Source: Neisseria bacilliformis | GTDB taxonomy: Bacteria; Pseudomonadota; Gammaproteobacteria; Burkholderiales; Neisseriaceae | Length of the DNA: 64,000 nt | NCBI RefSeq assembly: GCF_014055025.1 | Contig: NZ_CP059571.1 | Span: forward strand, 1,116,001 to 1,180,000 | Reading direction: 5' to 3' | Translations under genes and position numbers: made by a program | Shown here: positions 10,525 through 12,670 of the stretch, one piece after another | How positions within the stretch are numbered: position 1 is the first letter of the stretch | Layout: each line of letters starts with the position of its first letter | The notes under the pieces: model-generated | Database searches by the model: none | What the model saw: only the letters and a program-made list of their open reading frames with translations | What the model was told of the DNA's origin: nothing

Positions 10525-10575
10525 GTAAAGGCCGTCTGAAAAACACGTCAAACACGTTTTTCAGACGGCCTTTAC
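10525..10575. terminator. Paired-DUS terminator of ttcA
   Basis: GTAAAGGCCGTCTGAAAAAC is repeated in inverted order around a short ACACG-rich loop, giving a stem of about 20 bp with a T-rich 3' side, 12 bp after the ttcA stop. Confidence 0.75.
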
Positions 10576-10722
10576 TTATTCTCACCCTTCATCCGCATAT
10601 GTAAATTATCCGCAACATACTCTTCCCTGCGGTGCAGGCCGTTTAGAATGTCCCGCGAAATGCGGCGAAAACGCGCGATTTTGCCGCATCTTTGCCGATT
10701 CAACCGACAAACGGAGAGCAAT

Positions 10723-12459
10723 ATGCAAGAGCAAAACCAAAACCTGCCGCCTGAGGAAGCCGCACGGCCAAACGGTACACCGCAGCCGCAGAGGCCGTCT
10801 GAAAACACGGAAAACAAGGAAAACACGGCGGCGGATGCTGCTCCGGTGCAGGAGAAAAAAGCCAAACGCCGCAAAAAAAACAGGAGAGGCCGCCGTGCCG
10901 ATAACGCGCTGGGCACCAGCAAGGGCGTGGAAACCATGTTCCGCAACGCCGTGCGCTCCGAAATGGAGCTGTTGGCGCTGGCGGCCACCAAAGCCAATAT
11001 TATGATTTCGCTGAACGGTTTTATCGTGTCGGCACTGATGATTTCGGGGGCGTTTGTTTTCTCGTCTTCGCCCGAATTTCTGATTCCCGCCAGCACTTTT
11101 ATGGTAACGGCGGCTGCGTCTATCGTGTTTGCGCTGCTGTCCGCCTCGCCCGAGCGCATCGGCAAAATGCGCGCCCTGCGCGAATGGCTCAAAGACTGGG
11201 TATTCCGCAGGGCGAAGCTCTCCGATTTCAAAAGCCGCGTGCTGGCCAAAGACAACCGCTTTTTCGGCGGCGAACCCAATGTGCTGATTTACGAAGACTG
11301 CGTCAAAATCCCGCGCGAGGAGCATTGGCAGAAAATGCAGGACGTGATGGCTGACCGCACGCAGGTCTATGAAAAGATGAGCGACCATCTCTACTGGCTC
11401 GGCCTCTTGGCCGACAAGCAGTTCAAATACATCAACCTTTCCTATGCCGTGTTCCGCTGGGGGCTGCTGGCCTCGCTGGCGGCCTTTGTCGGCGTGAAAA
11501 CCATTCCCTCGCTTACCGCGCCGCAGCAGGGCAATCTGGCTGAGTTGCGCACGATGGGCATCAATGTGTTCAAAGGCGTGTACGAACCTTCGGCCGTGCA
11601 GCAGCTTCCCGACGGGCGCATTATGGTGGCCGAAGACGAGCCGAACCATGCGTTCAGTATTTTAAGTATCGATAAAAACGGTAATTTCGTTGAAGACGAA
11701 GCACTTGATACCCGCATCATCACCGGCTTCAAACGCAAGCTCAACGACCTCGAAGCCATGACGCGCGACGACGAGGGCTTTATGTATGCCATGACTTCGC
11801 ATTCGCGCAACCGCAAAGGCCAGCGTTCGCCCGACCGCGAGCACCTGATGCGCTTTAAAATCCAAAACGGCGAAGTGATCGGGCTGACCAGCTACGACGG
11901 CCTGACCGATGTTTTGGAAAAAGACCCAGCCCTGCATGATCTGATCCGCGAAAAAACCAGCGCCGAAGTGGTATTCGACGAAATCAACATCGAAGGGCTG
12001 GCCTTCGACCCCGTGAAAAAACGGCTGGCGTTGGGTTTCCGCGATCCCGAGTTCAATAATATGGCGCTGATCGCCTTTATCGCCAACCCCAAAGAGATGA
12101 TGGAGAAAAACGCCAAGCCGGTGTTTGACGAGGTGGCGATACTCGATATCGACGGCGGCGGCATCCGCTCGCTCAACTACGACCCCGTGCTCAAAGCCTA
12201 CATCATTGCCAACGAAGTCAAAGGCGATACCGGCGAGAAATCCTCAACCCTGTGGAAATGGAGCGGCAACCCCAAAGACGAGCCGCAGAAGCTCAACCTG
12301 CCCAACCTGCACCACATGACCAATGTCGAAGCCGTTGATTCAGTAAATATCAACGGCAGGCAGATGCTGCTCTTGATGGGCGACGAGGGCAGCGCGGAAA
12401 AAGGCATGACCGCCAAATACATGCTGGTGGACTACAACCGGCTCGGGCACAACGAATAA
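10723..12459 (+). CDS. Pycsar-effector-like membrane domain fused to a DUF3616-like domain
   Basis: The ATG at 10723 follows ACGGAGAG and gives 578 residues; an earlier in-frame start lacks a ribosome-binding site. Residues 1-65 are a low-complexity basic tail that includes an in-frame DUS (QRPSEN). Residues about 68-260 look like the PycTM (Pycsar effector) family: MFRNAVRSEMELLALAATKA and NIMISLNGF, two helices (about 95-142), a cytosolic stretch with FFGGEP and IYEDCVKIPREEHW, then a third helix. Residues about 275-575 resemble DUF3616, a predicted beta-propeller: LNDLEAMTRDDEGFMYAMTS then HSRNRKGQRS. No nucleotide cyclase or other defence gene adjoins it. The function is unknown, and both assignments come from pattern recognition. 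Confidence 0.75.
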   Translation: MQEQNQNLPPEEAARPNGTPQPQRPSENTENKENTAADAAPVQEKKAKRRKKNRRGRRADNALGTSKGVETMFRNAVRSEMELLALAATKANIMISLNGFIVSALMISGAFVFSSSPEFLIPASTFMVTAAASIVFALLSASPERIGKMRALREWLKDWVFRRAKLSDFKSRVLAKDNRFFGGEPNVLIYEDCVKIPREEHWQKMQDVMADRTQVYEKMSDHLYWLGLLADKQFKYINLSYAVFRWGLLASLAAFVGVKTIPSLTAPQQGNLAELRTMGINVFKGVYEPSAVQQLPDGRIMVAEDEPNHAFSILSIDKNGNFVEDEALDTRIITGFKRKLNDLEAMTRDDEGFMYAMTSHSRNRKGQRSPDREHLMRFKIQNGEVIGLTSYDGLTDVLEKDPALHDLIREKTSAEVVFDEINIEGLAFDPVKKRLALGFRDPEFNNMALIAFIANPKEMMEKNAKPVFDEVAILDIDGGGIRSLNYDPVLKAYIIANEVKGDTGEKSSTLWKWSGNPKDEPQKLNLPNLHHMTNVEAVDSVNINGRQMLLLMGDEGSAEKGMTAKYMLVDYNRLGHNE

Positions 12460-12670
12460 GATTGGCGGACAAAAGGCCGTCCCCGCCTACGCGGGCTGAC
12501 GTTTCTGAAAAACCGTTTTATAGGTTTTGGCTGCGCCGAAGCGATGTTTTCAGACGGCCTTTCCCATGGTCTGGCACGCCTGCTTAAAACATCCGATACG
12601 GCAAAGAGGCCGTCTGAAAAGTGTTTTTGGCTGCGCCGAAGCCGCGCTTTCAGACGGCCTCTGCCGTTTT

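Follow-up and report, generated by a model that had tools for sequence, protein, structure and literature searches.

Fusion of a PycTM membrane domain with a DUF3616/phytase-like domain in Neisseria bacilliformis and its possible place in phosphate and polyphosphate economy

Databases label the PycTM membrane domain as an effector of Pycsar defence, and proteins that carry it are therefore read as defence genes. A protein of this kind is encoded in a stretch of 64,000 nucleotides from Neisseria bacilliformis (NZ_CP059571.1, positions 1,116,001 to 1,180,000; hereafter the window), where a coding sequence of 578 amino acids on the forward strand (10723-12459; frame and coordinates verified) joins a PycTM domain to a domain of the DUF3616/phytase-like type. 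The question raised by this locus is whether such a protein serves defence or another cellular role. We consider the chances about even that it is not a Pycsar defence effector but an envelope protein of the inner membrane with a part in phosphate and polyphosphate economy. This reading is based on relatives in which the two halves are encoded as a pair of separate genes, on the linkage of polyphosphate kinase (PPK1), phosphate transporter and porin genes to these pairs, on a direct fusion of PPK1 with PycTM at one locus, on the presence of a second PPK1 gene, and on counts near zero for the same genes at control loci.

The N-terminal half was assigned to PycTM (DUF5706 being, we believe, an older name of the domain) by a match of the Pfam family PF18967 to residues 116-247 (E 1.6e-11; 45 bits, cut-off 27.2), and by the PADLOC PycTM model, which matches residues 87-252 (E 3.5e-6). 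The initial annotation of this gene had placed the domain at about residues 68-260, and the two profiles bear this out, the Pfam match being significant and above the curated cut-off. We delimit the domain as residues 64-262 (10912-11508; all features of the protein lie on the forward strand). NCBIfam gave no match in the window protein, and among solved structures nothing related was found, either to the protein as a whole or, by sequence profile, to its two halves. Residues 85-106 are invariant across all 21 rows of an alignment (A1), and the four split relatives that were scanned score more strongly against PF18967, up to 4.2e-23. Hydropathy predicts three membrane helices, at residues 95-113 (11005-11061), 120-138 (11080-11136) and 240-258 (11440-11496), the third of which runs into the C-terminal domain. 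A lysine- and arginine-rich tail at residues 44-63 (10852-10911), identified by charge count, precedes the domain and is probably cytosolic; residues 44-91 hold 15 lysines and arginines versus five acidic residues. Acidic residues exceed basic ones in the N-terminal tails of the Paracoccus relatives, so the basic tail is not common to all relatives.

The C-terminal domain (residues 277-578; 11551-12456) was assigned to DUF3616 through its relatives rather than by a direct Pfam match. Neither PF12275 (DUF3616) nor PF13449 (Phytase-like) matches the window protein, and a PF12275 scan of the whole source genome found nothing; control genomes likewise gave no match. Three sets of relatives carry the assignment. 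A tblastn search of plasmids found 21 records, all below 60% identity, with the 20 matches listed at 27-31% and mostly annotated as DUF3616; a stand-alone paralogue adjoining the fusion in a congener passes PF12275 (24.2 bits against a cut-off of 20.6); and in an alignment of 20 members (A3), 16 match PF12275 and 15 match PF13449 at E 0.01 or better, the best PF13449 match reaching 5.5e-9, while the window protein retains 24 of the 24 invariant columns. E288, D305, D342, E344, R372, E424, R440, R482 and D554 are among its invariant residues. The DUF3616-like nature of this half, as first annotated, thus stands on homology to DUF3616 relatives, although the PF12275 profile itself does not recognise it. 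A propeller fold is predicted from the two families, and any enzymatic activity is putative. The window protein differs from these families, whose stand-alone members carry signal-like N-termini, in falling below PF12275 detection and in being tied to the membrane through PycTM. Plasmid carriage of the gene was rejected, since the plasmid records all cover less than 80% of the protein.

Separate genes for the two halves provide the strongest evidence that they form one functional unit. A scan of genome contigs yielded 136 relatives, the best 80 of which were analysed as loci with a simple caller of open reading frames that includes spurious ones; 57 of these loci are fused (L096 is cut by a contig end) and 23 have a separate PycTM gene. 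At 18 of the 23 split loci the start of a DUF3616-like gene on the same strand follows PycTM by no more than 60 bp, and some of these pairs overlap. The DUF3616-like gene is more distant at L111, L114 and L124 (divergent in the last), and none was seen at L115 and L120, the latter coming from the same genome as L110. Thirty DUF3616 proteins stand alone, 21 of them next to split PycTM genes and nine as second copies next to fusions. A hydrophobic N-terminal stretch is present in 28, the remaining two falling just below the threshold, and six of the 30 have a lipobox-like motif. Together with the basic N-terminal tail and the three hydrophobic segments, these N-termini point to a topology, judged by hydropathy and charge, in which the N-terminus would be cytosolic and the propeller periplasmic. 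The nine second copies lie directly downstream of the fused gene (L050, L051, L052, L057, L071, L074, L078, L081 and L084), in Neisseria, Psychrobacter and a metagenome-assembled genome (MAG) labelled Brachymonas.

The genes around the split pairs suggest what this unit may do. At a tblastn threshold of 1e-4, the 80 loci contain PPK1 at five, the phosphate transporter families PHO4 at five and Na/Pi at three, PhoU_div at one and Porin_O_P at 12. All matches to PPK1, PHO4 and Na/Pi are at split loci, where they occupy nine of 23 in union (transporters eight of 23); Porin_O_P is found at nine of the 23, and the union with the phosphate genes reaches 14. Pfam searches of chosen neighbours confirmed PPK1 with each of its four domains, as well as PHO4, PhoU_div, Na_Pi_cotrans and Porin_O_P. 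A scan of 143 of the 155 proteins at the 23 split loci (12 were omitted for size) gave 157 families; Porin_O_P (9), PHO4 (4), each of the PP_kinase domains (4) and Na_Pi_cotrans (3) rank among the most frequent. The closest association is at L104, where PPK1 and PycTM are fused in a protein of 973 amino acids, preceded by a PHO4-type transporter and followed by DUF3616 and a porin. PPK1 is adjacent to PycTM at L114, L118 and L119, and L114 and L119 share the order PHO4, PPK1, PycTM, DUF3616, interrupted in L114 by an alginate-export-type gene. Of the 22 genomes that hold the split loci, five have two copies of the PPK1 family PF02503 and thirteen have one, and the five with two copies are exactly those with a linked PPK1, namely these four and that of L124. 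The linked copies share 36-39% identity with a Neisseria PPK1. They retain five histidines of the alignment, some of which lie in the KxHxK and YxHxGTGNYH stretches; two of the five are presumably catalytic. As judged from these sequences, the PycTM/DUF3616 module seems to have a polyphosphate kinase of its own in one sub-clade, while in Neisseria PPK1 is encoded away from the fusion gene. We know of no published account of a PPK1 operon with PycTM or DUF3616. Literature searches, which did not extend to bioRxiv preprints or to the majority of subscription papers, found nothing joining Pycsar with polyphosphate kinase and no description of these known domains in this combination and context.

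As a control we examined 20 loci with other PycTM proteins (L152-L162 and L186-L194), 4 to 19 kb long and drawn from class and phylum samples. At E 1e-3, PPK1, Na/Pi, Porin_O_P and DUF3616 were absent from all 20, and PHO4 was found at one. In a quick tree of 87 of 118 rows, which omits 31 of the 64 fused rows, the other PycTM rows cluster (24 rows) with a support of 99 in the Shimodaira-Hasegawa-like approximate likelihood ratio test (SH-aLRT), and the PPK1-linked loci fall in a single split sub-clade of 14 rows (SH-aLRT 96). The clade uniting fused and split forms (57 rows) is supported at only 82, and L151, L184, L185 and L200 lie outside it. The last of these, from a Persicobacter plasmid, encodes an HD-domain::PycTM fusion (L200:7338-8528) with a lysine-rich linker resembling that which precedes PycTM in L104. 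At six of the nine phylum-sample control loci (L186, L187, L188, L191, L193 and L194), a gene of the pyridoxal-phosphate-dependent aminotransferase family, which we take to be serine-palmitoyltransferase-like, lies about 2 kb or less from PycTM (for example L186:10501-11700); it is 82-86% identical between loci and represents a stable non-cyclase context.

In the mechanism that we propose, the N-terminal tail and the loop connecting helix 2 to helix 3 would face the cytosol, and the periplasmic propeller would bind or hydrolyse a phosphorylated ligand such as polyphosphate, pyrophosphate or a phosphate ester. The state of the propeller would be relayed through helix 3 to the cytosolic part of PycTM, which may control or dock polyphosphate synthesis or phosphate uptake. 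For the Neisseria protein, PPK1 and transporters from other parts of the genome would act as partners. The fused/split sub-clade offers a concrete non-defence context, phosphate and polyphosphate, and a testable two-gene module. An alternative scheme, in which PycTM is a mere anchor, a periplasmic phytase-like hydrolase at the inner membrane frees phosphate and the linked genes are its downstream users, agrees with the PF13449 matches in alignment A3, with the transporters and Porin_O_P porins at part of the split loci and with the signal-like N-termini of the stand-alone DUF3616 proteins. We regard it as unlikely. The invariance of residues 85-106 is extreme for a mere anchor, the separate PycTM of the split pairs cannot hold the propeller covalently, there is no Pho-box signal, and the hydrolase of this scheme derives from a family name.

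The remaining question is whether the homology to Pycsar effectors implies a defence role. In such a role the protein would be a relative of Pycsar that acts alone or is triggered by PPK1, its PycTM domain disrupting the membrane when a ligand binds. The homology itself (PF18967 and PADLOC), the patchy presence of the gene within the genus, and the fusions of PPK1 and of an HD domain to PycTM, which extend enzyme and PycTM pairs beyond cyclases, are in accord with this possibility. The evidence from cyclases is otherwise. The class III cyclase family PF00211 has no match in the whole source genome, whereas five of 14 control genomes match, and tblastn with two cyclase queries found none near the best 80 of the 136 relatives, with the source loci of the queries (L032 and L033) matching; among 49 genomes of relatives searched, 15 have no class III cyclase and 34 have one somewhere. 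A Pycsar system was rejected for the lack of a cyclase in the source genome and near the 80 loci. Among nine neighbours of the window gene, the only PADLOC matches are to an ABC ATPase, an FtsX-type permease and a spermidine-synthase-like protein, all of generic appearance, and the 143 split-locus neighbours matched 12 models at 1e-10 (RtcR-type, subtilase, ZorB/MotB, Csa3, mad2, SspA and DndA among them) in one or two proteins each, with no recurrent system. Porins and phosphate transporters are, moreover, suited to metabolism. We regard defence as improbable, the least probable of the explanations considered. A defence island was also rejected, since the window gene lies among genes that we take to encode LolC/D-like lipoprotein transport, ttcA-like and spermidine-synthase-like proteins, with other metabolic genes.

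These results bear on several proposals of the initial annotation. Its statement that no cyclase lies nearby is true and extends to the whole genome, and its suggestion of a single-protein defence system finds no support in the absence of a genomic cyclase, the generic PADLOC matches and the company of phosphate genes among relatives. The alternative that it offered, in which PycTM is a membrane module of general use and the protein serves a purpose outside defence, is supported and may be narrowed to phosphate and polyphosphate handling. The survey of homologues that it called for found no cyclase at the 80 relatives, and one among ten further high-scoring loci (L145-L151 and L183-L185; class and phylum samples, profile E 1e-40 or better): at L147 a divergent PycTM-DUF3616 fusion lies 0.9 kb from a class III cyclase domain (11922-12521, reverse strand), and no other fusion was seen to have a cyclase close by. 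Only three of the 20 control loci (L154, L162 and L190) showed a cyclase by tblastn with two queries, a number that limits sensitivity. Many PycTM proteins may thus lie outside Pycsar. The window protein shares with Pycsar PycTM a homologous membrane domain and differs in the lack of a cyclase and in its C-terminal DUF3616 domain, a separate partner gene in split relatives; part of the fused/split sub-clade differs further in its phosphate-gene neighbours, and the tree sets this sub-clade apart from the other PycTM rows. Should the broader reading alone hold, PycTM would still be older or wider than defence, and annotation from the domain alone would be unsafe.

Full-length homologues occur in 28 of 46 Neisseria genomes, a 29th carrying only a fragment with a stop, and the fusion was found in none of 37 genomes that represent 11 further genera of the Neisseriaceae. 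These counts rule out a universal core gene of the Neisseriaceae. The surrounding core genes, which had been taken as slightly favouring a housekeeping role, are weak evidence, given this distribution and flanking genes that vary among groups of Neisseria. A sample of 399 genomes of the order added three fusions, all in one other family, and the sole high-scoring match in an alphaproteobacterial sample was an already known relative. According to the titles of the records, the best 80 relatives come from Neisseria, Paracoccus, Psychrobacter, Chromatiaceae, Thiotrichaceae, Methylococcaceae and several alphaproteobacteria, along with MAGs labelled Lautropia and single MAGs under labels that include Acidobacteria and Propionibacteriaceae; MAG labels can be wrong.

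Several observations weigh against a role in phosphate and polyphosphate economy. PPK1, PHO4 and Na/Pi are found at none of the 57 fused loci and Porin_O_P at three, and none of the four queries matched in the window by tblastn, so the phosphate link of the window gene is by homology to its split relatives. PPK1, PHO4, Na/Pi and Porin_O_P are likewise absent from all ten of the further loci; an alginate-export-type porin is present at L145, and L151, with no DUF3616 match, adjoins a calcineurin-like phosphoesterase. Since the PPK1-linked loci belong to one sub-clade, they are not fully independent; PF02503 is absent from four of the 22 split genomes, several of which are MAGs; and membership in Porin_O_P is no proof of phosphate specificity. 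Two-component regulators are also common among the 143 split-locus neighbours (Response_reg 7, HATPase_c 5). Regulation by PhoB was rejected, as six of 79 upstream regions have a Pho-box at p 0.05 or less, about the number expected by chance. Co-occurrence within the genus is uninformative, because PPK1 is present in 45 of the 46 Neisseria genomes with or without the fusion and lies about 0.9 Mb from the PycTM-DUF3616 gene in the source genome. Finally, copies of the AT-type DNA uptake sequence exceed 1,400 in six Neisseria genomes (G012, G016, G022, G027, G030 and G047), the next highest count being 673, and all six are without the fusion. The AT-type dialect is described for N. meningitidis, N. 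gonorrhoeae, N. lactamica, N. cinerea and N. polysaccharea (PMC3630211). As judged by these counts, the gonococcal group is probably without the gene, and the polyphosphate that gonococci bear on their surface (PMC10237660) would therefore not depend on a PycTM-DUF3616 protein.

This distribution is also relevant to the idea that PycTM is a channel, through which chains made by cytosolic PPK1 would pass the helices to the periplasm, there to be bound or trimmed by the propeller, by analogy with eukaryotic VTC. In VTC a polyphosphate-making enzyme is coupled to a membrane domain with three helices per subunit (PMC12526157), and a published description of Pycsar PycTM has it as a membrane-spanning pore (PMC11224242); the likeness to VTC is by analogy only, for the membrane domains as well, and the catalytic domains are unrelated (TTM in VTC, PPK1 here). 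The fusion of PPK1 to PycTM in L104, its adjacency in L114, L118 and L119, and the confinement of a second PPK1 to those four genomes and that of L124 are consistent with a channel. The fusion is a single case from a MAG, however, a linked PPK1 is missing from 75 of the 80 loci, and the six gonococcal-type genomes without the gene argue against a general Neisseria exporter, given the surface polyphosphate of gonococci. We hold a channel to be improbable. A wider form of the idea, in which PycTM and a periplasmic propeller would make up a bacterial machine for polyphosphate translocation or gating fed by a dedicated PPK1, with Pycsar as a defence offshoot and Neisseria retaining a fused form with a chromosomal PPK1, is similarly a long shot drawn from analogy. 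The kinase-fused membrane domain would nonetheless be a direct candidate for polyphosphate exit in these bacterial relatives, though the gene is absent from the gonococcal-like Neisseria genomes; other gene products may take part in translocation across the gonococcal outer membrane (PMC10237660).

Smaller features of the locus concern the start and the upstream border of the gene. A Shine-Dalgarno-like GGAGAG (10713-10718, forward strand), read from the sequence, ends four bases 5' of the ATG at 10723 and favours this start over the in-frame ATG at 10648. An inverted pair of DNA uptake sequences (10531-10569) 3' of the upstream ttcA-like gene is a likely terminator, a role that we assume for such pairs in general; it was not among the calls of a terminator scan. 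The 10-base Neisseria DNA uptake sequence is present in 118 copies on both strands of the window, compared with 0.17 expected, and many of these form close inverted pairs.
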